From positions 14,625,149 to 14,689,148 of the forward strand of contig NC_045146.1 of the NCBI RefSeq assembly GCF_008831285.2: DNA of 64,000 nucleotides, given 5' to 3'. The position numbers and the translations under genes were made by a program. Below the pieces are notes generated by a model that saw only the letters and a list, made by a program, of their open reading frames with translations, ran no database searches and was not told the origin of the DNA. Below, piece by piece: positions 32,105-62,528 of the stretch (its first letter is position 1; the number at the start of each line of letters is the position of its first letter). Origin of the DNA: Nymphaea colorata. Taxonomy: Eukaryota; Streptophyta; Magnoliopsida; Nymphaeales; Nymphaeaceae.

Positions 32105-33408
32105 TTAATTTTTGTAGTATTGGGTTTTGGTTATTCCAAGCATGTGGTTCTTGTCGTAGGCCACATCTGAGAGGAGTATTTCATCTTTTGGCAGGTCGTC
32201 AGCATCCATAGAATAGATGCTGACGTTCTCCGGCGTGTACAAGAAGTGCTCCTGCTGGTCAACCTCAAAGTCTGCCGGAAACGCCTGCGGCGCGTCCATG
32301 GAGAATGATGAGCTTGGCCTGCAGCTTTTCTCTGAGAGCCTAGAAATCTCCTTCTCAGCCTCTGCCAGCATCTCTCTGACGACCCGCCAAAAGATGAAAT
32401 ACTCCTCTCAGATGTGGCCTACGACAAGAACCACATGAGAATATAGGGGACGTATAGAGTAGCCCTGCAAAGAGACCAGCCATTTCATTGAGATCATGAA
32501 CGAGTTTGGGTTTTTGTGGAATAAAGCAGGTTTAGGCCATACTTAAAGAGCCGAGTTCGTGACCATGCTGATTAGAAAAGCTTGGCAACCTAAACTTTAT
32601 ATCAGATGATGATCACTGAAATACGAGTCGGAGAAACTATTTATATCCTCATCTTTTACAAGAAGTGGGTTCCTTGACAGGTTTCAGTTACTGAGAAATT
32701 GTTCTTAAAAAGCTTAAATTAAATCAAAGCAATCTTGTTGTTGTTTCTATTGTTGTACTTTTCACCGTAAAAGTAGGGGAAAAGAATGTAATGGGAACGA
32801 CGGCCGGAATTTATAGCCTGTTTCAAACCATGTCTGAAACATTAAACCTGGTCTTAGCCCCTTAAACAAGTAATTTTTAGACTAATGTTGATACTGAAAC
32901 GATGTTTTTGACAGTCATTAAGACTGACCTCCGATTCGAGCTTGCTCTTCTCTGAGTTGGCATTTTCATACAAGGACTCGAGCCTCTGGTACTCTTCCTC
33001 CAGCTGCTTGCTCTTCCAGCGGGCTCGCCGGTTCTGAAACCAGACGGCGACCTGACGGGGGTCGAGGCCGATCTCCATCGCGAGCCGAAGCTTCCTCTCA
33101 GACTGTAGCTTGTGCTCGTTGTCGAAGTTCTTGTCCACGAAATAGACTTGCTCTGCGCTGAGCCTGCGCTTCTTCATCTCTGCCGTGGCGTCGGACTTGG
33201 CCTTCTTGTTCCTTCGGCGCCTGGGCTTGGGCTCGTCCGCCGGACACTCGACGCTGCTGATGAGCCAGAAAGGGTCCATATCCCCTGATACAGTCGACTC
33301 TGCTAAGTTGGTGTGTGAGTTGGGGGCACCTTCTGGAAAGGGTGGACTCATGACAGGGTAGAAGCTAGAAAGGAGTGCCATCTGATCCTCGACGTGCTTC
33401 ATATTCAT
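32105..33408 (-). CDS. HD-Zip class I transcription factor, copy A (splice junction damaged)
   Basis: DNA-binding leucine-zipper homeodomain protein. Exon 1 is 32929-33408 (160 codons): acidic N-terminus, basic [11 protein letters not shown] (61-71), homeodomain ~78-134 with [10 protein letters not shown] (123-132), then the zipper. It ends in phase 0 at a GTCAGT donor. Exon 2 includes 32105-32371 ([12 protein letters not shown]-terminal [14 protein letters not shown]). The tail and homeodomain resemble the HB21/HB40/HB53 clade. Two oddities: helix 1 reads QVYFVDKNF where the family usually has QVNFLEKNF, and the exon 2 acceptor is obscured by a 62-bp inverted piece of the gene's own 3' end. 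The only nearby AG in phase would add about 10 foreign residues. Either a weakly altered gene or a young pseudogene. Confidence 0.65.
32141..32202. repeat. 62-bp inverted repeat, arm 1 (inside exon 2 of HD-Zip copy A)
   Basis: This is the part of exon 2 encoding [20 protein letters not shown] on minus. It is repeated in inverse at 32376-32437, with one mismatch seen. Confidence 0.85.
32376..32437. repeat. 62-bp inverted repeat, arm 2 (at the exon 2 acceptor)
   Basis: Inverted copy of 32141-32202, sitting where the intron acceptor of HD-Zip copy A should be. On plus it still reads [17 protein letters not shown]. The equivalent piece is present in HD-Zip copy B at about 34875-34929, so it predates the duplication. 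Confidence 0.85.
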
Positions 33409-34191
33409 GGCTTCCTACTTCAGATTGCCTCTGTACTACCATCTCGAGAGGGGATGGTCAAGACATGACAGGCCAAAAGCGACACCATCGTCGCTGAATT
33501 TATAGGGCTTCAGACACCAAAGTACACAAGCTTCCTCAAAATATCCAATCTATCCAGTTCAATTATTTTTAGCAACTACAAAAACCGCAGATATGCACGT
33601 ATTCATGCATTGAATATATTTTAAATTTATATTTTAAATTCATATTTTTACATCCAAATTATCGAGCCCATTGGGTTAGCTCGATGCCTTTTTCTTTGGG
33701 CTCAGGCCTGAGCCCAATCGAATCATCGAATTCGAGGACCCACCGACTGTTGGGTATGATGCCCAACCTTAATTACATTTACAACCAATCACTTGGAAAA
33801 GATACACAGTTGTTCTTCTTACCTCCTTGGACTGATTTGGCATTAGTATGGTTCAACTTGAATACCATACTCTGTTCCTTATGATAACTCCCATAAAAAT
33901 TTGAATCCAATAACCTGACCAACTGGTTAATTCATGCCTTTAAATTAAATTCAACAACAAGTAAGAAGTCAGTTTTCATCTTTTTTTTAACTGCAATTTT
34001 CCTTTTTAAGATGCTACCATTAAAAAAAAAAGGAACTGGATAGATTGGAGATTTTGAGGAAGCTTATGGGTACTTTGGTGTCTGAAGCCGTATAAATTCA
34101 GCGACGATGGTGTCGCTTTTGTCCTGTCTGTCATCTTCTTCACCATCCCCTCTCGAGTTGGTAGCACAGAGGCAATCTGAAGTAGGAAGCC
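33409..34191. promoter_or_regulatory. Shared head-to-head upstream region of the HD-Zip pair
   Basis: The inverted arms continue upstream of both start codons to 33560 (copy A) and 34033 (copy B). Both copies therefore kept about 150 bases of the same 5' flank. The 472-bp spacer between them is unique and AT-rich. A bidirectional promoter is an inference; no TATA box was confidently placed. Confidence 0.45.
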
Positions 34192-35307
34192 ATGAATATG
34201 AAGCACGTCGAGGATCAGATGGCACTCCTTTATAGCTTGTACCCTGTCATGAGTCCACCCTTTCCAGAAGGTGCCCCCAACCCACACACCATCTTAGCAG
34301 AGTCGACTTTTTCAGGGGATATGGACCCTTTCTGGCTCATCAGCAGCGTCGAGTGTCTGGCGGACGAGCCCAAGCCCAGGCGCCGGAGGAACAAGAAGGC
34401 CAAGTCCGACGCCACGGCAGAGATGAAGAAGCGCAGGCTCAGCGCAGAGCAAGTCAATTTCCTGGAGAAGAACTTCGACAACGAGCACAAGTTGCAGTCT
34501 GAGAGGAAGCTTCGGCTCGCGATGGAGATCGGCCTCGACCCCCGTCAGGTCGCCGTCTGGTTTCAGAACCGGCGAGCCCGCTGGAAGAGCAAGCAGCTGG
34601 AGGAAGAGTACCAGAGGCTCAAGTCCTTGTATGAAAATGCCAACTCAGAGAAGAGCAAGCTCGAATCGGAGGTCAGTCTTAATGACTGTCAAAAACATGG
34701 TTTCGGTCAAAATTAGTCTAAAAATTACTTGTTTAAGGGGCTAAGACCAGGTTTAATGTTTCAGACATGGTTTGAAACAGACAATAAATTCCGGCCGTCG
34801 TTCCCATTACATTCTTTTCCCCTACTTTTACGGTGAAAACTGAAACAGGCTCCTCTATACGTCCCCTATATTCTCATGTGGTTATTGTCGTAGGCCACAT
34901 CTGAGAGGAGTATTTCATCTTTTGGCAGGCAGAGAAGGAGATTTCTAGGCTCTCAGAGAAAAGCTGCAGGCCAAGCTCATCATTCTCCATGGACGCGCCG
35001 CAGGCGTTTCCGGCAGACTTCGAGGTTGACCAGCACCGGAGGACGTCAGCATCTATTCTATGGATTGGAACAATTTCTATCCCAATCTCCTGTAATTGCT
35101 ATATATTGGACCCGGTAATTTGGTATTCAGCGCACAATTTATATCCCAATCTCCTGTAATTCCTCCTGCCAAAACAGAGTTAAATAAGCAGGAAACGGCG
35201 GAAAGGAGTGTAGGAATCACTGGAATGGAATTTGGTTGGGAGTGGATGTATGTATCGTCGTGCAATAAATATAAAGCGAAGCAGTGCGTCACGGCCGAGT
35301 TTTTTTG
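34192..35307 (+). pseudogene. HD-Zip class I transcription factor, copy B (C-terminus broken)
   Basis: Exon 1 is 34192-34671 (160 codons) and nearly identical to copy A. Its helix 1 is the consensus QVNFLEKNF and [10 protein letters not shown] is intact. The intron is shorter than in A (about 259 versus 549 bases). A plausible acceptor TTTTGGCAG at 34928 opens exon 2 in phase with [12 protein letters not shown] deletion of about 19 bases relative to A, near 35033, then shifts the frame, and homology to A ends around 35065. The shifted frame runs on through unrelated DNA to a TGA near 35307. It could still make a protein with homeodomain and most of the zipper but with a foreign tail. Confidence 0.7.
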
Positions 35308-43112: not shown

Positions 43113-43255
43113 AGCGCATGTTTATGGTATGGTATCTGTAGCAATTTAACAAAAGGGTGTTTGCGAAATAGTCTTGTACCACTACTAAATGACAAACTAG
43201 GGAAATAGTCTCATTTATTATCCACTTCTCTGTATCTGAAGTTTTAGCTTTTTCC
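43113..43255. repeat. Inverted fragment of the 36.5-kb module
   Basis: Read on minus it matches about 36530-36690 (GTTTGTCATTTAGTAGTGGT, then the ATACCATACCATAAACATGCG word). The 52.5-kb duplicate lost part of this segment. Confidence 0.7.
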
Positions 43256-44134
43256 TGCTTGCTGCTTGATTTATTGACTGGACCGCTAGATCCAGAAGGA
43301 GTGATAATAATAATAGGGCCAGGTTTACCGAAAGCTTCAATTTTAACAAACCAACGTTTTCAAAATGTGAATAATCACAAAAATCAATCACGCCTCAAGA
43401 AAAGAAACCGCCTCTTGGCTTGGTCAACCATGAGGACTGGAGATCAAAAGCAAGAGAGAGAGAGATAGAAGAGAGAGTTCAGTTGAACTCTAAGCGGACG
43501 GATGATAAGTGGAAACATATTTTGATGGTGGGCAGCCCTTGAGTGGAAAGGAAGCCTATCCTGAATACGACAACGATCGAGTGAGTATGTTATGTGTATT
43601 ATGTAGCGTAGCTAAATAGTCACCATCTTTTCTCTTTCACAATTTGCTTTTTCAGTTTCTAAGCATGCATGCATGCGCACACACAAACAAACGTAAACCA
43701 ATTTACACGGCAACCACTCTTTTCTCTCTCACTTCCCTTTCGAACTCTCTTACGCTTCTCACAGCCAAAAAACACATGTCCCTCCCATTCCTTTCGAACG
43801 TATTTTCAAGTGCCCAACAGCTAAACTTCCTCCTGAACAACAAAAATTTGTCCTCCTTCCTTGAAAAGTGTTTTCAGCTACCCACTAGCCGAACTTCCTG
43901 AACAGACAAAAATTTGTCTACCTTCATGTGTTTTCAGGTACCCCTTATTGTAATGGTTTGATGATCTGAACAAGTGATTTCTCCTTCAGGAAGTGCAGCT
44001 AATAATGGAGGACAGCCATTTTATCTGCTCATTTTATGGAAAGACGGGCCATTTAACAAAGCAATGCAAACTATAATATAAGCCAACCATAATCCACCAT
44101 AATCTGTCCCCTTACAGTTTTCCTTATTTCTTAA
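43255..44134. repeat. Outer inverted repeat, left arm
   Basis: Inverted counterpart of 48347-48870. Shared words include GCATGCATGCATGCGCACAC, the AACTCTCTTACGCTTCT region and a GATCCAGAAGGAGTGATAAT block. About 290 bases (43310-43600) are absent from the right arm. A direct third copy of its inner part lies at 50118-50475. Confidence 0.8.
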
Positions 44135-45188
44135 GATTATTAATTAATATGTTTTCAAGGTTTCAGTTACATAATTTTATGATTTTGGCACAACGTACGT
44201 GATGTTGATTGCCGCATTCACATCAAATTTTAAATGCTTATTAACATTCAAAGTCCAAAGTTCAAACATATAATCCTGCTTTTGAGATAAACTCTTGTGA
44301 GTAAACTCTGTCATTCCAGTGACTTTCCTGGCTAAGGTTCAGGTTTTTTACCCGACCCGGCCTGGTTAATAACGGGTCGGGCTCGGGGCCCTTGACTGAG
44401 GGCCCGAGAAGAATTTGATGTGAATGCGGCAATCAATATTGGGCAGTGGCAGTATATATGTTCTCAGTATATATGTTCTATCGTTCGAAATAATTCGACC
44501 AGTCGGCAGCTTTCCTTCTCAAGGTACTGTCTCTCATTTGTTCTTTCTTTTTCTTTTTTTTGTCTTCTTCTTCTTCTTCTTCTAAGCTTTGATGGCTTGT
44601 GCAGGATTGGGCAGACATCAGAATAACAGCGACAAGAAGAACCATGAAGAGATCATAAAGCTGGCGGCCAAATTTAAATGGCAACAGTGTCCCAAATGCA
44701 AAATCTATATTGAGAAAGTAGGGGGCAGCAACCACATCACTTGCAGGTGTGGTTGCAGCTTCTGCTACAAATGTGGCGCAAGATGGGCGTATCACCGATG
44801 TCAATCCTGAGAAGAGCCGACAATCCAGGCCACTATGGGAACTCTCTTGTTGATCAGACGGAAGGCATTAGGCAGCGTTGTTTGGAGAATGGCACTTTTG
44901 ACAGATGTCCTCGTTGGTCGAACTGCAGCATCGTCGTCCTCATCTCATGGATTGAAGCCTCAACTGGAAGAGGTTTACACAGTTTTACCGTTTGTATTAA
45001 ATAAATAAGGATTCCCCTTCTTGGTGCATGGTTGAATGTATTTTTCGTTCTTCCTTTCAAATAATATGTGACCAAATAAGGTAAGCGTCTACGTAAATAA
45101 AAGAATGTTTGATGGAAAAAGTGGAATGAGAATAGCCATTTCTTCTTGCTACTTCGCAGAGGACGCGACGCCGATGGGCCGGTCGCTG
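44135..45188. repeat. 2.2-kb palindrome, left arm
   Basis: The arm is almost identical to the reverse complement of 45308-46364, with only scattered substitutions and 1-3 base indels. It carries an RBR-type exon, and a shorter nested inverted pair (TTGATTGCCGCATTCACATC at 44205 and its complement near 44415). Confidence 0.92.
44605..44810 (+). pseudogene. RBR-type E3 ubiquitin ligase fragment, plus copy
   Basis: The exon follows a CT-rich tract and the acceptor GCTTGTGCAG and ends at TGA. It encodes KLAAKFKWQQCPKCKIYIEK, then GGSNHITCRCGCSFCYKCG. This CPxC...H.TC.CG..FCY.CG pattern is the IBR/Rcat zinc-binding module of RING-between-RING ubiquitin ligases. The RING1 domain, most of the IBR and any normal C-terminus are missing, so this looks like one captured exon of a larger gene rather than a working enzyme. 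A nearly identical inverted copy lies 0.9 kb away. Confidence 0.75.
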
Positions 45189-45307
45189 GTGGTCGCATAG
45201 AAATTGATGTTCCTTTCGACTTGTCTCTCTGTCTTTCTTCCGTGGACCAGACCACGGTCACACACATGCGAGACCACCGCACCAGCACTGCAGCATCACC
45301 CACCGAG
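45189..45307. other. Palindrome centre (119-bp spacer)
   Basis: Unique DNA between the two arms. It contains a small inner inverted pair (GTGGACCAGACCACGG region) and GTGGTCGC...GCGAGACCAC words near its edges. Confidence 0.8.
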
Positions 45308-46364
45308 CAGCGACCGGCCCATCGGCTTCGCGTCCTCTGCGAAGTAGCAAGAAGAAATGGCTTTTCTCATTCCACTTTTTCCATCAAACATTCTTTTATT
45401 TACGTAGACGCTTACCTTATTTGGTCACATATTATTTGAAAGGAAGAACGAAAAATACATTCAACCATGCACCAAGAAGGGGAATCCTTATTTATTTAAT
45501 ACAAACGGTAAAACTGTGTAAACCTCTTCCAGTTGAGGCTTCAATCCATGAGATGAGGACGACGATGCTGCAGTTCGACCAACGAGGACATCTGTCAAAA
45601 GTGCCATTCTCCAAACAACGCTGCCTAATGCCTTCCGTCTGATCAACAAGAGAGTTCCCATAGTGGCCTGGATTGTCGGCTCTTCTCAGGATTGACATCG
45701 GTGATACGCCCATCTTGCGCCACATTTGTAGCAGAAGCTGCAACCACACCTGCAAGTGATGTAGTTGCTGCCCCCTACTTTCTCAATATAGATTTTGCAT
45801 TTGGGACACTGTTGCCATTTAAATTTGGCCGCCAGCTTTATGATCTCTTCATGGTTCTTCTTGTCGCTGTTATTCTGATGTCTGCCCAATCCTGCACAAG
45901 CCATCAAAGCTTAGAAGAAGAAGAAGAAGAAGAAGACAAAAAAAAGAAAAAGAAAGAACAAATGGGAGACAGTACCTTGAGAAGGAAAGCTGCCGACTGG
46001 TCGAATTATTTCGAACGATAGAACATATATACTGAGAACATATATACTGCCACTGCCCAATATTGATTGCCGCATTCACATCAAATTCTTCTCGGGCCCT
46101 CAGTCAAGGGCCCCGAGCCCGACCCGTTATTAACCAGGCCGGGTCGGGTAAAAAACCTGAACCTTAGCCAGGAAAGTCACTGGAATGATAGAGTTTACTC
46201 ACAAGAGTTTATCTCAAAAGCAGGATTATATGTTTGAACTTTGAACTTTGAATGTTAATAAGCATTTAAAATGTGATGTCAATGCGGCAATCAACATCAC
46301 GTACATTGTGCCAAAATCATAAAATTATGTAACTGAAACCTTGTAAACATATTAATTAATAATC
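45308..46364. repeat. 2.2-kb palindrome, right arm
   Basis: Inverse of 44135-45188. Right of it (46365 onward) the sequence differs from the left flank, so the palindrome has a definite outer edge at GATTATTAATTAATATG. Confidence 0.92.
45686..45891 (-). pseudogene. RBR-type E3 ubiquitin ligase fragment, minus copy
   Basis: Mirror copy of 44605-44810 with the same frame, acceptor and stop. One visible amino-acid change turns GGSNHITC into GGSNYITC, replacing a histidine that is normally a conserved zinc-site residue in this module. All cysteines remain. Like its partner it is an isolated terminal fragment. Confidence 0.75.
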
Positions 46365-47577
46365 CTTTTACCTTGGCTAAGTCCACATCTCTGATGATGT
46401 CATGGATAACCACCTCTCAGTCTGCACCAAAAGGGAAATGGAATGTTCCAGACAAGCACTAACAACAAATTTAGAGAAAAGCAGCTGTTGCACGCAAATG
46501 AGAATGCAACCTGTATCTACAGAACCACAATGTCTAGTGATTTCATGCATCTCCGATAATGTTAGACCACCAAGTCTTGAGACAGATGAGAACACAAATA
46601 GAGCAGTGTCATGGCTTTGGAACCAAAAGAGCGTCGGATAGAAAAAAAGGAAAATTGTATTAATGAAACATATGTTCTTATAATACATGTTCTAGAAATA
46701 CCATGACGTAAATATAATTACACCAATGAGGTATCCTATTTCCTGAAATAATAATATTATACTTTTCTAAATCGTGCATTAATTTAAAAACATGTGTTTC
46801 AATAACATAATATTCTTCTTATCAAACACCCTCTACGGTTTTCGTGTCGGCACATTTATACAATTTCCTTGACATCAGTACTTTATCGCCATGGTGGTAC
46901 GAAGCGTTGGCGATTTTCAAATCCGGAGCTGCATGCATGGTAAACGCGCGGAAATTTTTAGCACTAATTGAACATGGTACCTTCTCGTGCCATGTTGCGA
47001 TCAAATTTGGCTTAAAATGAGAAAGCAGGCGCGATGAATAGGGCTGTAGTTCATTTACTTGGAGATGAAACAGAAACCTACAAGCAGACGGTTTCAATAC
47101 TATATTTACTTAAAGTATTGCTTTGGTTAACCTTTTTCTTTGATGTCACGGCATAATACTGCATAATTGTGTGAACTGCATATATCTAACTGCATATTAA
47201 AATAATTGTGTGAAGCTGGTGTGGGCAACTGCCCACACCAGCCACCAGGTGGCTCCCCCACTGGGAGTATCTCACTGCCTAAGCAAGAGCTGATCAATTA
47301 CTTACATTGTATTCACAACAAATTTCTTTTATTAACGCAGCTGGAGTTCTGAGAGCACCTTATCAAGTTACGTCTTGAAACTTACCTTAGGTGTCCAACT
47401 CTTAGCTTCCATCAACTAAAGGTCCATAACTTGAACTCCACACATTCAAATTCCTTTTCTCCTTTCCTAAAAAGATCAGTATTTCAAACTCATGTTCGTT
47501 GTATGCTCTCCCCACACTGCAAAACTCCAGGGTTAGTATTTCTTGCAAGGCACTTAGACATGCCTAAACATGTATAA
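46365..47577. other. Intergenic; unassigned frames only
   Basis: Minus-strand frames of 103 (46377-46688) and 91 codons (46822-47097) have no motif I know and no flanking splice structure. At 47218-47239 a GTGTGGGCAACTGCCCACAC palindrome marks another copy of the dispersed repeat seen at 12098. Confidence 0.4.
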
Positions 47578-47970
47578 AATATGAGCCTTTAGAAAAAAGT
47601 GAGGCAAAGAAGCTATCGCAAACAGAATAGATAACAATAACACTATAACAGATATTCACAGGAAAAGAATAAAAATAAAAAATAAAACAAAAAATTTTAA
47701 ACCCTTGAGTAATAAGCTATCAAGCCTTTCCTACCTTTTTCTTCTTGTCTTTGCAGAGGAAGGCCTCTAAAGGAATTCTTTTCACCCCCTAGATTTTCAA
47801 TAGAGGCTCTTCCCCGAGCCACCACACATGGGCTCCATTTCATTGTCATATGTTTTCTCTCTCTAGAGTTCTAGGATGACAAACACATTCTACTTGTGCA
47901 CATTTCTAAGTTTTACCTGCATCCCGTTTGTATTTCAGATGCATTCGTAAAGACCACCCAGACTTGAGCT
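47578..47970. repeat. Direct duplicate (partner 51898-52240)
   Basis: It begins AATATGAGCCTTTAGAAAAA and continues through CTCTTCCCCGAGCCACCACA to TTTCAGATGCATTCGT. The partner lacks about 45 bases of the middle. Same orientation, about 4.3 kb apart. Confidence 0.85.
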
Positions 47971-48346
47971 AATTTAACGAATGGGTACTCATTTTTCATA
48001 GAACATGACACTTCGAATTAATAATATAACATGTAGGAGCAACAGCAGCATATTAGCACATCAAAACATGTAGCTTTCCATTATTGAGCTTACACCATGT
48101 CAGCCCATGTGAAAGGTCTGAGTCCCTTCACAATATTGCTCATCGATAAGTAGCTTCAGTAGTACTTCTCCATTATTTCCTTTGCTTACTGGTTCTTTCT
48201 CTAAAAGGCCCCGATTCAGGTCGGATGACTTGAGTTCTGAACCGGGTCAGATAAAACCTTGACAGTCTAGCTAGCTCCTAGAAGCCCTCACATGGAGATG
48301 AATAACTGCACCGTGTCTACATTAGTGAAATCACTATTAATAACTA
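47971..48346. other. Intergenic, nothing recognised
   Basis: AT-rich sequence between two duplicated modules. No frame or motif supported. Confidence 0.4.
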
Positions 48347-48870
48347 TAAAATGAGCAGATAAAATGGGTGTCCTCCATTATTAGCTGCACTTCCTGAAGG
48401 AGAAATCACTTGTTCAGATCATCAAACCATTACAATAAGGGGTACCTGAGAACACCTGAAGGTAGACAAATTTTTGTCTGTTCAGGATGCTCGGCTAGTG
48501 GGTAGCTGAAAACACTTTTCAAGCAAGGAGGACAAATTTTTGTTGTTCAGGAAGTTTAGCTGTCGGGCACTTGAAAATACGTTCGAAAGGAATGGGAGGG
48601 ACATCTGTTTTTCGGCTGTTAGAAGCGTAAGAGAGTTCGAAAGGAAAGTGAGAGAGAAAGAGTGGTTGCCGTCTAAATTGGTTTACGTTTGTTTGTGTGT
48701 GCGCATGCATGCATGCTTAGAAACTGAAAAAGCAAATTGTGAAAGAGAAAAGATGGTGACTATTTAGCTACGCTACATAATTCGATCTCATGTGACTGCG
48801 TTTTACGGACTGCCGGGTATTATCACTCGTTCTGGATCTAGAGGTGCAGTCAATAAATCAAGCAGCGCAG
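48347..48870. repeat. Outer inverted repeat, right arm
   Basis: Inverse of 43255-44134, without the left arm's 43310-43600 block. Together with the left arm it encloses the RBR palindrome, giving an inverted repeat within an inverted repeat over about 5.6 kb. Confidence 0.8.
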
Positions 48871-50117
48871 GGTCGAGGTTCTGGTGGTTCCGTTCGGTCG
48901 GAGATGAAAGCAGGAGGGAACCGTTTGTTTTGAACCTCACTCGATCGAAAAGATATTCCAATGTGAAATGCTCGAAGAACATGTCGATACAAAGTATTGT
49001 AAGTAAATGGATCCCGAGTAGAGTCATTCTTTGATGAATGATCACTATAAAACAGACTTAATAAAACTTTATCAATCCTTTTTTCTCTTGTCAAGGTGAA
49101 GAACTGCACTAGGAATTCTCTCTCTTCATCATCAATCCCATATATTTCAGATCTAACCTCTCTCCTTTCATGTACAGTTGAGAGTAGTGCAACATTGTTT
49201 GTGTGCACGAAGCACGAAGAAGTTCCAGTGGAAAGGTATGGCGCTCCTTATATGAACAAGGTTATTTTGTTGTTTTCAATGGCAACATAAGACGTGAAAC
49301 TTGTCCTAATTGTATACACAAGGTAGGCCAGACACGCGTCATATGGGCCCTACACATATAATATTCAAGGCCTTTTCTAAGTTTAAAGATGCTTTGAAGT
49401 TGCACTTCTCTTGTTAGACGTTTGTTCTTTCATTTGCTTTTGCTTAACCAGTTTGAGCCTGTCCTTCTCATTACTGCAAATAGAGTACGTGAGTGCCGAG
49501 TTTGTTCGATCTCCTTAAATTCCCTGCCTTCCTAGGTAAAATTCTTCAACCATCCACGGTCGCTACCACCTGTAAAAATGTACAACGGATCTGCCCAACA
49601 TAAAGTACTTCTTTGGACCTAACTCTCTGAGAAATAATATAATTCGTTCCAAAACAAGTTCTAGCATATACTTGTTGATTACCCTTTCGAAACTTTTCAT
49701 AAATATTCAGAAACTTTGCTTTGAAAAGATTGAAAGTATCATATCTTAACCAGCATATCCACTAATCAAAACTTTCGAGTGGGCAGGGACCTGCTGCTCG
49801 GTAGAGAGTTGAAGATCCCACCCAACCTTTTGAGGGTGCTACTGCTGCTGTCAGTGACTTCTTTTTTGCACACAAGTGGTTAATGCCTTTACTGACCACT
49901 ATCAACCCCCACTCCAAGCCATTGGGCTAGCCCATTTGGAGGACACTAACCGAAATTCAAAAGACTTCTCGTCTTCCAACAACTCCAAGGCCTTATATAC
50001 TCATCTGTGTAAGGTTTATCCATCCATAGGCGCTGTAGAAATATATCATCATTCTAACAGACTTAAGTGAAATATTGTAGATCTCGATCTGGCCACTAAT
50101 GGATGCCTGATTATATA
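48871..50117. other. Intergenic, nothing firm
   Basis: Short frames of 60-116 codons occur on both strands around 48800-49290 without splice borders or motifs. No gene supported. Confidence 0.4.
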
Positions 50118-50475
50118 GGCTCCCATTCCTTTCGAACGTATTTTCAAGTGCCCAACAGCTAAACTTCCTGAACAACAAAAATTTGTCCTCCTTCCTTGAA
50201 AAGTGTTTTCAGCTACCCACTAGCCGAACTTCCTGAACAGACAAAAATTTGTCTACCTTCAGGTGTTCTCAGGTACCCCTTATTGTAATGGTTTGATGAT
50301 CTGAACAAGTGATTTCTCCTTCAGGAAGTGCAGCTAATAATGGAGGATAGCCATTTTATCTGCTCATTTTATGGAAAGACGGGCCATTTAACAAAGCAAT
50401 GCAAACTACAATATAAGCCAACCATAATCCACCATAATCTGTCCCCTTACAGTTTTCCTTATTTCTTAAGATTGG
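50118..50475. repeat. Third, direct copy of the outer-arm module
   Basis: It matches about 43776-44137 in the same orientation, from CCCATTCCTTTCGAACG to TTATTTCTTAAGATT. It stops at the base where the RBR palindrome begins in the first copy. Confidence 0.85.
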
Positions 50476-51282
50476 TACATCATTGTAGATGTAATACCTA
50501 CTAAACCTAACGATTCGGTAAGACACAGTAAATGAAGAAATGATGTGATGTGGGTTTTATTAAACTCAATGTGGTTTTCTATTGAACCTGTGCAGCGAGC
50601 TTTTAGAACGGCAGCTCTCAAACCAGTTGGTCTATAAGGAACCAGGTACAGATCACTCCTTAAACTCACTTGCTTGAGTTCAAGAGACACAACTAAACAG
50701 AAGTCCATGAATCACAACTTTGCAGAATAAACACAAACCAAACCTTACGCCTACATAGCACCACTCTCTGAATACTGACCCAAAAGAACATCTACACTTG
50801 CCCCAAGCTCATATCTCAACACTCAGAACTTACAAGCCAACTTTGCTATGACCCAACAATTGGCCAACTCTTTGCCCAACCAAATGCATCATGGACATAA
50901 CAAATTAGGTATAACATTTTTGTTGCTAACCTTTTCAAGGTCAAAAACTTAGCCATCTCAAAAAAATTTCAAATCACCAGGCCAACCTTTCCTATTCTTT
51001 GCCCAAGCAAATGCATCATGGACATAACAAATTAGGTACAACATTTTTGTTGCTAACCTTTTCAGAGTCAAAAACTAAGCTGTCTCAACAAATTTTCAAA
51101 TCACCAGGCCAACCTTTCCGAATAGGAACCTTAATGCACTTGCTATCAATCATTTATTTGTTCTCATCATGATCGAGGCTAGCAAAACATAAAGGAAAAA
51201 TAAAAATGAAACAAAATATACTAGAAAAAATATTTACACCTCTGGAGGAGGACATGCAGCCATTTTCCATTTAATTGAGCTG
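50476..51282. other. Intergenic with a ~122-bp tandem duplication
   Basis: Two adjacent copies at about 50875-50997 and 50998-51118 share ATGCATCATGGACATAACAA and AAATCACCAGGCCAACCTTT. No gene supported. Confidence 0.7.
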
Positions 51283-51574
51283 TCAGATTCTACAACACGA
51301 TGTTCTGTTTGTACTGAAATCTAAGTATATGACAGATGTATTATCTTTGGTTCTCAAAGTTCTTGCTTCGTTCAACACTAATTTAGCTATCAACTCTGCT
51401 ATATTCTCTTGATCTGCTACGTCATATGTTTCTCTGTACTGCACATGCCATCCCAGAATCATTTTAATCGAATGCAATAATTATAGTTCAAAGTTCGACA
51501 ATGGCACAAAATTAATTACCTGAAGAATTAGTTGGTTTGCTTTCTTTATGCTAAGAACGTCCCAAAGGCCATCG
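51283..51574 (-). pseudogene. PP2C protein phosphatase, last two exons only
   Basis: Type 2C Ser/Thr phosphatases are metal-dependent. Two minus-strand exons are seen: 51520-51574 (after acceptor TTATTGCAG) encodes DGLWDVLSIKKANQLILQ and ends at a GTAATT donor; 51283-51438 encodes YRETYDVADQENIAELIAKL, then NEARTLRTKDNTSVIYLDF, to a TGA. Phases match. The DGLWD motif (its Asp is a metal ligand) and KDNTSVIYLDF are PP2C signatures. No earlier exon was found upstream between 51575 and 52240, where duplicated repeat DNA begins. The gene is therefore probably truncated, although a very long intron cannot be excluded. Confidence 0.75.
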
Positions 51575-51897
51575 CTGCAATAAAGAACAGTAAAAATAGT
51601 ATGAAACTATGCCTTGCATAATCAGCAAAGAAATGGCCACAGCAGTCGGTCAGAGTTGGGGCTGAATATTAGACAGAAAAGGTCCATGTATATGATAGAG
51701 ATATGAAGAGAACTTGCTCTAACCATGTCAGGCAAGTCCCTGACATGCAAACCCACACTTTGATGCATCAGGTCCTTAGCTGGACAAGGACCCTGTAAAG
51801 CTCAACTGCACTCAGGAGTCAAGTGGTATCCAAATCTTGTGACCAAAAAAGGATCATGGAGGAGGGATCAACTTCAACAACAAAAACTCGATGAATA
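51575..51897. other. Flank of the PP2C fragment
   Basis: No further PP2C exon was recognised. A GTCAGGCAAGTCCCTGACA inverted word lies near 51727-51745. Confidence 0.4.
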
Positions 51898-52240
51898 AAA
51901 TATGAGCCTTTAGAAAAAAGTGAGGCAAAGAAGCTATCGCAAACAGAATAGATAACAATAACACTATAACAGATATTCACAGGAAAAGAATAAAAATAAA
52001 ACAAAAAACAAAAAATTTTAAACCCTTGAGTAATAAGCTATCAATCAAGCCTTTCCTGCATTTTTCTTCTTGTCTTTATAGAGGCTCTTCCCCGAGCCAC
52101 CACACATGGGCTCCATTTCATTGTCATATGTTTTCTCTCTCTAGAGTTCTAGGATGACAAACACATTCTACTTGTGCACATTTCTAAGTTTTACCTGCAT
52201 CCCATTTGTATTTCAGATGCATTCGTGAAGACCACCCAGA
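51898..52240. repeat. Direct duplicate (partner 47578-47970)
   Basis: Same order and orientation as the partner. It ends at ATTCGTGAAGACCACCCAGA and passes directly into the next duplicated module. Confidence 0.85.
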
Positions 52241-52244
52241 CGTG

Positions 52245-52567
52245 AACAATTGACAAATTGCTGCCCAATTCAATTTATGAACATTATTTTGGCTGACCGT
52301 GAAAACACAGCCCCGTCCACTCTATGTACGAAGCCTTCAATATCTGAATCAGAAGAAGATGCGTATCACCTCTTAAATCATTTCAGCTTGCAAATTAAAT
52401 ATGGACATGGATATCCTAGACACGCTTCCAAATATGCCTATGTTTTTTCACCAACACACTTGAACAGCAGCAAGCAGGAAAATGCTAAAACTTTAGATAC
52501 ATAGAAGTGGAAAATAAATGAAACTATTTCGAAAGTTTGTCATTTAGTAGTGGTACAAGACTATTTC

Positions 52568-58753: not shown

Positions 58754-61700
58754 ATGGATGACAAAGTCTCTTCTCTACCATTTCCTAAACTCTCATCAAC
58801 AAATTATATATAATGGGCTAGAACTATGGAACACTTTATACGTAGTAAAAGCCTTTAGGGACTAGTTGATGGGACAAAACTTGAACCACAACTAGTCCTC
58901 ACTAAAGTTGTTGATGGAAGAGCTATGGAATTGGACGGAACGAAAAAAATGGAAAGTAGTGGCTGAATATAATAAGAAATAGGAAGAATGGAGTGTTGGT
59001 CATCATAATATTATTACTTAGATCTTGACTTGTGTTGACAATGCTAATAGTGGGCAAATCTCTAAATTAAATTTTGCCCTAAAGGCTTGGGAGTATCTAA
59101 AGAAAACTCATACCATGAGAGATGTTGCTTATATGCATAATGTTCAACTCAAAATTCACAATCTTCAACAAGGAGATAGATCCATTAAAGAGTATGTGGC
59201 TGAAATGGATCAATTGTATGATGAGTTGAGCATTTTTGAACCACATTGGACGCAAGATCTTCTTCTTAGAGAAAAGCAAATACAACGTGATAAGTTCTAC
59301 AAGTTTATCATATGTCTTAGACCCGAATTTGATGGTGTTAAAACCGCTTTACTTCATCGTTCTAAAAACACCATTATGAATGAGGCTATTGCGGAGCTTC
59401 AAATAGAAGAAAATCGACTTTATCTTGACAAAGAAAAAATCAACAATGTTCTTGCCACATCTAGGCCAGGGGCCCATTTGAGACCGTATAGACCTCCTCA
59501 CTTTAATCGTACAAATGAGGGAGCAAGAAGAAAGATTATTTGCTATCATTGTCAAGAAGAAGGGCATACCAAGCCTACATGTCCAAAACTTAGAATTTTT
59601 GTCAAAAGAAGCAATGTTGCGGCTCAAATTCAAGAAGAAAGGAAAGATGCAAGGTCTTTCCAACTAGATCAACTCATGAGTGTTCTTCAACCTAAGATCA
59701 TTAAAGTTATTCAACCTTTATTAAAGGGAGGAGGCACACCTTCAACATTGGGCGCCACCGTGGCATCTACTTCTTCAAGTAAGTACTCTTGGGTTATTGA
59801 TTCGGGTGCATCTTTTCATATGACTCCTTGTGGATCCCATCTCACTGAATGCACCAAAAATTATTCTTATTCTTTTGTGAAAATGGCGGATGGTACTTCT
59901 CTTGAAATCGATTTTATTGAAAATCTTGACCAAACTTTTGAATCCAAAACTCTAAAAGTACCTCATGTTAGATATATTCCTAAATTAAACTTAAATCTAT
60001 TATCCGTTTCTCAAATAGCATACCTTGGTTTTGATATAATCTTCTCACAATACAAATGTTTGATACAGGACCGTGTATCTAAGAAGACGATTGGGGAAGG
60101 TTTTATAACAAATGATCTCTACTATATAGAGTTTTTGGATCTTTCAAGACCATCTTGCAATATCTCCAAAGGATGTGACATTCAAACTTGGCATCAAAGA
60201 CTTGGACACTCTAATCTAGAAAAAATGTCTCATCTTCCCTTTGTGAAAAATTTTTGTCAAAAGAACTTTCATTGTAATGATTGTATTAAGGCAAAAATGA
60301 AAGTATTACCTTTTGACAATAGAAATTTCATTGCCCAAAAATCTTTTGATTTGGTGCATTCGGATGTGTGGGACCAATGTTGTAAAACGCGTATCGTAAG
60401 CCGTATCGGTCGAGCTTTAAGATACGTCGTATCGTAACGTATCGTAACCATATCGTAAATTTTAAAATAATAATAATAATAAATCAGAAAAAAATCATAA
60501 AATTCATAAAAAATCAGAAAAAATTAAAAATAATAAATTCTTCATAGAAAACATGGTTTAGTCTTTTAGATAATGATAGACTTATTATTTTGCTAAATGC
60601 TATACGCGTTCACGGTTCATCATTCATACTTCATAGACATCAAAATTCATAACAATATCTTTCTTTTTCATCTTCATCTTCATGGTTAAAAAAAACCCCT
60701 TTCCTCCCAATGGGAATCAGTCACTCATGCACAAATTCATAGTTTAATAGATGATTTCACAGTAAAAATCGATGATTTCACTCTAAGACGATACAATCTA
60801 TAGATTAGAAATGAAGGAGGAGTGGGTTTTTATTAAAAAAACTCGAAGAAATGGGGTTCAAGCTCTCTTGTTAGAAATAAGCCTGTATCGTACGATACGG
60901 GCCGTATCGCACTGTATAGTATGATACGGGGGCCCGTATCGCATGTATCGTACGTGTATTGTACGATACACTCCCATTTGTGATACAGGGGGTGTATCGT
61001 ATCGTATTTTCTAAACGATATGATACGTATCATACGATACGGCCCCGTATCGTACGATACGTACAACACTGGTGGGGACCCGCTCCTATTATGTTAAAAG
61101 GAGGATTATTGTACTATGTGATCTTTATTGATGATTATTCTAGACATACTTGGGTTTACTTTCTCAAACATAAATCGGAGGTTTTTACAAACTTTATGAA
61201 CTTTTACAACATGATCTATACCCAATTTGGCTCAAATATCAAAGTCTTTAGAAGTGATTCGGGAGGAGAATTTATGTCAAATGAGTTTTAACAATTTCTA
61301 AAAGAAAAAGGTATTGTTCATCAAAGATCTTGTCCTAACACTCCACAACAAAACGGAGTGGCCGAGCGTAAGCATAGGCACATTATTGAAACTACTAGAG
61401 CTCTTCTTTTATCCAAAAATGTTCCCAAAAACTTTTGGGCTGAGGCTGTTTTAACTTCAACCTATTTAATTAATAGAATGCCTTCCAAACTTTTGAAACA
61501 TATTTTTTCGTTTGAAAAACTTCACCACTTTAAACCCAATTACAATAGACTTAAAGTCTTTGGTTGCAAATGTTTTGTGTTAAGTGATAAAGACGATAAG
61601 CTTTCTTCCAAAGCTATTTCTTTTGTTTTTATTGGGTATTCTGAAACTCAAAAGGGTTATAAACTGATCTGGGAAGACTAACATATTTTCTTGGAATTGA

Positions 61701-62528
61701 AGTTGCTTGTAGCAAACAGGGGTAATCTTCTTTCTCAAATGAAGTTTGCTAGTGAGTTAGTTGACAGAACATGTATCTCAGATGACAAAGTTGTTGATAC
61801 TCTAGAAGCACTTGGAGTCAAAATGAAAATTGATGTTGGAGAGATATTAGGAAATCTCACTCCTTTTCGGCAAATAGTTGGTGCTCTCTCTTATCTCTCT
61901 ATCACCAGGCCTGACATTGCTCATGTCGTGCATGTGATAAGCCAATTTCAACAAAGACCTTCCTTAGTACACATGGGAGCGGCAATGCGGATCGTCCGTT
62001 ATGTGAAAAACACTATCAACAAAGGATTGTTTCTGTCTTCCTCTTCTATATTAAAATTAATTGCTTATACAGATGCTGATTGGGGGGAGATCCCAATAAT
62101 AGGCACTCCACCACTGGTTTTTGTGTGTTTTTAGGTGATTCCTTAATTTCCTGGCGATGCAAGAGACAAAACAAGATGTCACTATCCTCAACAGAAGCTG
62201 AGTATCGTGCAATGGCAACTACAACAATGGAGATTGTGTGACTCAAGAGCTTGTTGAAAGATATGGGAATTCATATCAAGGATCTCCTGTCAAGCTTTGC
62301 TGTGACAATAAAAGTGCAATTTATATTGCTAGCAATCACACTTTCCACGAACGAACGAAGCATATAGAGATGGACTGTCATTATGTTCGTGAAGAATTCC
62401 TTTAGAAGAATATTGATCTCTCCTATGTTCCTTCTGAATATCAACTAGGCGACTTCTTCACAAAAGCTTTTGCGGCAGCCAGATTTCAATTTCTCCTTGG
62501 CAAACTTTCAGTTATCACACTGTAAGTT
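58754..62528 (+). pseudogene. Ty1/copia retrotransposon gag-pol relic
   Basis: The gag start (LSSTNY region) at 58754 is broken by stops. A long frame at 59025-60437 holds the gag core, CCHC knuckle CYHCQEEGHTKPTCP, the protease DSGASFHMT motif and GAG-pre-integrase WHQRLGHSNLEKM. Integrase is cut at 60374 by an inserted element and resumes at 61072 with DDYSRHTWVYF, NTPQQNGVAERKHR and NFWAEAV. At about 61675-61685 it jumps straight to the RT end (FLGIEVA, RPDIAHVVHVISQF) and RNase H (DADW, then a frameshift, [10 protein letters not shown]). Most of the reverse transcriptase is therefore deleted. Cannot move by itself. Confidence 0.9.
60367..61079. mobile_element. 697-bp TIR insertion inside copia integrase
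   Basis: The element spans 60375-61071. Left end CAATGTTGTAAAACGCG; right end, reversed, CAGTGTTGTACGTATCG; the terminal repeats share CARTGTTGT. The flanks read GTGGGAC on the left and GTGGGGAC on the right. The intact integrase (SDVWGPAP) needs GTGGGGAC once, so this is an 8-bp duplication with one G lost on the left. Both ends are packed with CGTATCGTA and GTATCGTACGATAC variants. It is related to the element at 57153. Confidence 0.8.

Follow-up and report, generated by a model that had tools for sequence, protein, structure and literature searches.

A near-perfect palindrome of chimeric gene fragments in Nymphaea colorata, probably a young foldback duplication

A near-perfect palindrome in Nymphaea colorata raises the question of whether it is a silencing locus aimed at a gene elsewhere in the genome, or a product of DNA rearrangement. 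The window, which is the whole 64-kb stretch of DNA that was analysed, lies at C9:14625149-14689148 and contains no N bases. It was compared with the 407.8-Mb assembly of 783 contigs. The region C3:19120001-19280000 was also taken, and local coordinates on C3 are counted from 19120001. A limited search of open-licence papers found no earlier description of the palindrome locus.

Structure and composition of the arms

The two arms comprise 1,054 and 1,057 bases and are reverse complements of each other (Table 1). In the alignment, 1,044 of 1,054 aligned bases are identical. The arms differ by ten substitutions (about 1%) and by a sole gap, a 3-bp indel inside an AAG/CTT repeat. The alignment bears out the near-perfect palindrome of about 2.2 kb, with arms of about 1.05 kb and a spacer of 119 bp, that had been described at first sight. 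By reasoning, a chance origin of arms of this length is excluded.

RNAfold gives the plus strand of the palindrome (2,230 nt) -2,044 kcal/mol with 97% of its bases paired, and the longest helix without interruption is 399 bp. The minus strand reaches -2,060 kcal/mol, and five other pieces of the window, each of 2,230 nt, range from -483 to -947 kcal/mol. The modelling agrees with the original prediction that a transcript would have the potential to fold into a long hairpin. The palindrome thus has the long near-perfect inverted repeat and the short spacer of a hairpin-siRNA locus. A young MIRNA gene was rejected. MIRNA foldbacks usually stay within about 300 nt, and the stem of about 1,054 bp is far from this short length.

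A MITE-like 28-bp inverted repeat occurs in each arm, its two parts 182 bp apart (44202-44229/44412-44439 in the left arm, mirrored at 46060-46087 and 46270-46297 in the right arm). By eye, no clear target-site duplication is seen at this element.

Judged by homology, each arm is a chimera of a CDPK-like intron, an RBR RING2 exon and a GH3 3' end. A simple RBR inverted duplication is ruled out by this three-part composition. The original prediction spoke of two mirrored RBR exons, and an RBR exon is indeed present in each arm. It has a Pfam IBR match (PF01485, E 9.4e-8) and aligns to the RING2 region of ARIH1. The exon accounts for only about 206 of the 1,054 bases per arm, the rest being CDPK intron and GH3, and to this extent the description did not hold. 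In the left arm the RBR frame has 68 residues (44604-44807) followed by TGA, and the exon is fused to GH3 at about 44822.

The CDPK-like fragment is the first part of the intron that follows an EF-hand exon. The end of this exon lies in the right flank and runs through a donor GT at 46370-46371 into the right arm. The CDPK name is based on Pfam EF-hand matches below the curated cut-off and on the neighbouring reading frame on C3, which has a protein-kinase domain; against the PDB, the EF-hand piece has only weak calmodulin/CDPK matches (best E 0.06).

Both arms have Ser where ARIH1 has Cys in the motif GGCNH, presumably the catalytic Cys of RING2. The left arm reads GGSNH, and the right arm has an additional change of His to Tyr two places past the Ser. 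A working RBR E3 ligase gene, which comprises RING1-IBR-RING2 with a catalytic Cys in RING2, was considered and rejected: the arms have only RING2, and Ser replaces that Cys. No further RBR module was found in the window by a pattern scan, a weak scan that missed the right arm on account of its Tyr. Between the RBR exons of the C9 palindrome and of a second palindrome on C3, dN/dS is about 0.28 (51 codons, with only seven synonymous changes). This hints that the RBR lineage was formerly under constraint.

Table 1. Features of the palindrome and its surroundings (positions in the window)
Feature	Position	Strand	Remark
Local repeat (A block), interrupted at the left junction	43254..44138	+	GATT shared with the arm
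Left arm, putative derived inverted copy	44135..45188	+	Outer end is a novel junction to the local repeat
CDPK-like intron fragment	44137..44349	+	91% identity to C3:19235260-19235472 (C3 local 115472-115260)
RBR RING2 exon fragment	44605..44810	+	AG acceptor just upstream
GH3-derived part	44823..45188	+	Internally deleted last-exon coding scraps followed by GH3 3' flank
Spacer	45189..45307	.	45210-45307 on the minus strand is natural GH3 3' flank and continues the right arm
Right arm, putative original copy	45308..46364	-	Collinear with C3 sources inward and outward
Mirrored RBR RING2 exon fragment	45689..45892	-	GGSNY
Rest of insert	46365..47569	.	Mosaic of further ectopic pieces
CDPK-like EF-hand exon end	46372..46433	-	Right flank only
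Local repeat, resuming right of the insert	47570..48064	+	About 1.42 kb of the unbroken copies missing between
Uninterrupted local repeat copy	50120..52245	+	Unbroken AAGATT-GGTACATC

Relatives on C3 and the insertion site

The region C3:19.13-19.25 Mb holds all three source types together, each about 10% diverged from the arms. When the left arm (with two more bases) is searched against the genome, there are 22 matches among the best candidates: the two arms, 15 matches within C3:19.13-19.25 Mb, and five short ones (43-57 bp) elsewhere. Only the arms themselves are full-length, and no other full-length copy is found among these candidates. The RBR-GH3 fusion recurs on the minus strand of C3 at local 120954-121592 (about C3:19240955-19241592). 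This copy retains more of the GH3 exon and shares a perfect stretch of 69 bases with the arm. The order of CDPK and RBR-GH3 is swapped between C3 and C9.

The C3 array consists of eight GH3 copies, and each of the eight has open frames in its last two large coding blocks. One copy has Pfam GH3, GH3_M and GH3_C matches. For Nymphaea colorata, 27 GH3 genes are reported, 12 of them on chromosome 3 (PMC13149400). The arm has about 73-83% identity to the GH3 genes over the matched part. The C3 region also carries at least four RBR pseudo-exons, and Copia-like frames, named by eye, separate two portions of the RBR-GH3 fusion region.

The right arm and the spacer as far as 45210 are collinear on the minus strand with a C3 GH3 3' flank (45210-45583 against C3 local 46041-45670, 80% identity). 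At the opposite end, the CDPK homology reaches 69 bases into the right flank beyond the palindrome (46150-46433 against C3 local 115260-115543, 90% identity). The homology of the left arm to C3 ends at 44137, which is the palindrome border. Because the C3 homology passes both ends on the right arm only, the right arm is, on this comparison, the original and the left arm its inverted copy.

The JC distances between the arms and C3 are 0.109-0.114 substitutions per site for the CDPK intron (217 sites), 0.096-0.101 for RBR (221-223 sites), and 0.114-0.118 for GH3 (265 sites). With 10 differences in 1,054 bases between the arms, against about 0.1 per site to C3, the inversion appears to have about one tenth of the age of the separation between the arms and their C3 relatives. 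With C3 as the reference for the ancestral state, two changes are assigned to the left arm and eight to the right, one of these eight being based on the nearest C3 copy alone.

At the left border, the local repeat runs as far as GATT and the arm takes over; the arm too begins with GATT, so that the junction has a microhomology of 4 bp. About 1.42 kb of the local repeat is replaced by 3.43 kb of mixed pieces. A second unbroken copy of the repeat lies within C9:14492410-14497469 and likewise reads AAGATT-GGTACATC. Two pieces of the insert outside the palindrome have matches elsewhere: 46569-47158 matches C9:12372341 (85%), and 47187-47554 matches C3:7106173 (76%). By eye, no target-site duplication is seen at the palindrome ends.

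The local repeat is of low copy number, with three copies in 9 kb in both orientations (43254-44138, 48346-48871 inverted, and 50120-52245). A CCHC-like knuckle motif is present in two of the three copies, and relatives occur at C9:14.49 and C9:21.95 Mb. Further along the window, 59022-62134 contains Copia-type-like frames (gag knuckle, integrase, and reverse-transcriptase-like pieces), which were named by eye.

Other palindromes and possible silencing targets

A second RBR palindrome is present on C3, with local arms 102513-103359 and 103417-104265 (C3:19222513-19224265). It has 840 identities, seven mismatches, two gap positions, and a 57-bp spacer. Its order is tail-to-tail as in the C9 palindrome, and the GH3 part is absent. 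The two palindromes have in common the RBR exon and some of the sequence preceding it. From the exon to the centre they are unlike, with GH3 in the C9 palindrome and other sequence in the C3 palindrome. A single ancestral palindrome copied to both chromosomes was rejected on account of this central sequence and of the outer ends, which also differ. Both palindromes keep the RBR frame open, and in the other C3 copies seen it is broken.

In the C9 palindrome, six of the ten arm differences fall within the outer 176 bp (binomial P 0.0025, for a region picked post hoc). In the C3 RBR palindrome, six of the seven differences are in the inner half, and the outer 407 columns have none except a 2-base gap at the edge. 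Since these lean the opposite way, no rule of gene conversion is drawn.

A GH3 palindrome lies at C3:19214128-19216171. Its inner arms are at local 94526-94803/94835-95112 (261 identities, 17 mismatches) and its outer arms at 94128-94402/95897-96171 (260 identities, 15 mismatches). Over the whole stretch, each of the eight GH3 genes is matched with up to two mismatches at 571-919 of 2,024 positions. Three palindromes from material of the C3 neighbourhood, a count confined to these related loci, may suggest more recurrence than a single accident would.

The window also contains a second inverted gene duplication, composed of HD-ZIP-like homeodomain copies at 32751-33570 and 34023-34847 in head-to-head order. 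The pair has 785 identities, 33 mismatches, and nine gap positions, and the copies are about 450 bp apart. One copy has a Pfam Homeodomain match.

The original prediction held that silencing would be aimed at an RBR gene elsewhere. At the protein level, the RBR exon has 19 matches among the best-scoring candidates: the two arms, nine in the C3 cluster, and eight elsewhere. Two of the nine are the arms of the C3 RBR palindrome (82-84%, open). The other seven come from broken copies: stop codons interrupt six of them, and the last belongs to a pair of matches that overlap on the frameshifted fusion copy. The eight matches elsewhere have 37-54% identity, and some of their frames are open. No intact, closely matching RBR gene is found among the 19 protein-level matches, and silencing of such a parent is rejected with it. 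The proposed target thus fails, by a check on the parent gene that had been named beforehand as able to refute the idea and that found none among the best-scoring candidates.

The arm was also compared with the eight GH3 genes (g1 to g8) as 21-mers, at 1,030 arm positions and allowing up to two mismatches. The near-matching 21-mers number 18, 95, 26, 103, 88, 26, 97, and 107 for g1 to g8 respectively, against 0 for each of five unrelated window pieces used as controls. Perfect 21-mers occur only for g2 (6) and g5 (7). The best score belongs to the broken C3 RBR-GH3 fusion, with 287 near-matching and 98 perfect 21-mers, and the C3 RBR palindrome has 143 near-matching ones (controls at most 3). 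The GH3 genes appear to be the better-matched genes that look intact, as judged on their last two large coding blocks.

Origin of the palindrome and comparison with known systems

The palindrome is probably a young foldback duplication of a non-functional chimeric gene scrap, born of repair. Several observations argue for this account. The right-arm homology to C3 passes both ends, whereas that of the left arm stops at the border. The unbroken repeat exists twice, and in both copies the border falls at AAGATT. The divergence from C3 is similar across the three parts, against 10 in 1,054 between the arms. The lone RING2 has Ser, the GH3 part has internal deletions, and more ectopic pieces lie in the same insert. 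The RBR frame that is open in both palindromes and broken elsewhere on C3 counts against the account, as does the recurrence of palindromes made of this material.

Under the foldback account, sequence of the C3 neighbourhood, consisting of the CDPK-like intron and the RBR last exon already fused to the GH3 3' end, would have reached C9 and landed inside the local repeat, which would have lost about 1.4 kb. On arrival or later, the end of the right arm would have folded back, or repair synthesis would have switched template, and about 1.05 kb would have been copied in inverse orientation as the left arm. The left arm would have been joined to the broken repeat through the 4-bp GATT microhomology. 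The process was presumably double-strand-break repair with template switching. Reinsertion of circular DNA on C9 was considered, with the swapped order of CDPK and RBR-GH3 as its sole hint. Yeast foldback inversions after double-strand breaks are reported with stems as short as 4 bp, and are alike in that one end folds back with a secondary joining to another sequence (PMC7467729). The yeast events are described there as gross rearrangements in a genetic assay, whereas the process on C9 is inferred from one product. The locus probably has no selected function today, and a hairpin transcript, if produced, could possibly give incidental siRNAs.

A working hairpin-siRNA locus is a minor possibility beside the foldback duplication. 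A folded read-through transcript would be cut by DCL enzymes, and the resulting siRNAs would act in trans on the C3 GH3 array and the RBR scraps, either through cleavage of transcripts or through RNA-directed DNA methylation. The near-perfect 1.05-kb stem is consistent with this, as are the near-matching 21-mers for every GH3 gene (18-107 of 1,030, and none in the controls) and precedents in Arabidopsis (PMC13213937), poplar (PMC9636151), and rice (PMC2708354). Perfect 21-mers for only two of the eight genes (6 and 7 of 1,030) argue against it, and the best match is the broken fusion and no working gene. The GH3 palindrome within the array matches the GH3 genes far better, which would make the C9 locus a secondary source at best. 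It is doubtful, and somewhat more so, that RBR/GH3 scraps became inverted repeats at least three times and formed dispersed hairpin loci that, through their siRNAs, keep the adjacent GH3 tandem array, expanded in this lineage, in check as a recurrent self-generated silencer.

Capturing elements typically carry mixed gene pieces. The mixed pieces within one insert, and the local repeats A and C that are inverted to each other around it, would fit an element of the capturing type (Pack-MULE, foldback, or Helitron), or a transposon bounded by long inverted repeats, that happens to have gene pieces at its ends. Helitrons are marked by a 5' TC and by a 3' hairpin-CTRR end. A transposon origin is nevertheless unlikely, and strongly so, because no target-site duplication is seen by eye at the palindrome borders and only the two arms are full-length among the 22 best genome matches; the insert also replaced about 1.42 kb of its target. 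An assembly artefact from a doubled-back read is the most improbable explanation. Such reads can occur in PacBio RSII technology. The assembly is reported to be based on PacBio RSII sequencing, with libraries of about 20 kb (PMC7015852). Against an artefact stand the ten substitutions and the 3-bp indel, including changes private to each arm, a spacer collinear with one arm only, a left border that is a microhomology junction into a repeat with known unbroken copies, and left and right flanks that differ.

If the palindrome is only repair scrap, it is a well-resolved case, in which the first arm, the relatives, and the four-base seal are all readable. It would also illustrate a way in which starting material for plant hairpin loci may be generated. 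If the C9 palindrome or the two C3 palindromes yield small RNAs, fragments of tandem GH3 (auxin-conjugase) genes would act as hairpins against their own array. Such GH3 hairpins would be an example from an early-diverging flowering plant.

By analogy, mirror-image gene scraps of the C9 kind are known raw material for gene-silencing RNAs. In poplar, partial ARR17 duplicates are reported with 24-nt siRNAs and target methylation, and like the C9 arms they are partial inverted gene fragments away from the related gene (PMC9636151). The inverted pseudogene pairs of rice also consist of two fragments in inverse order within one hairpin, and for the chromosome 6 pair mapped small RNAs are reported, along with a stem of 185 nt and a loop of 1,283 nt (PMC2708354). 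In Arabidopsis ecotypes, siRNAs and methylation were shown for two inverted repeats, PAI1-PAI4 and VIM4-VIM2, and the siRNAs from the VIM pair reportedly lower the VIM genes (PMC13213937). In contrast to the PAI and VIM repeats with their siRNA data, to the methylated ARR17 target, and to the short stem and long loop of rice, the C9 palindrome is known from sequence alone: its arms are chimeric scraps with only about 73-83% identity to the GH3 genes, its stem is about 1,054 bp, and its loop is 119 nt. Like the C9 palindrome, the PAI and VIM repeats are gene duplications in inverse orientation that could fold into near-perfect stem-loops, and the PAI pair shares its tail-to-tail order (PMC13213937).
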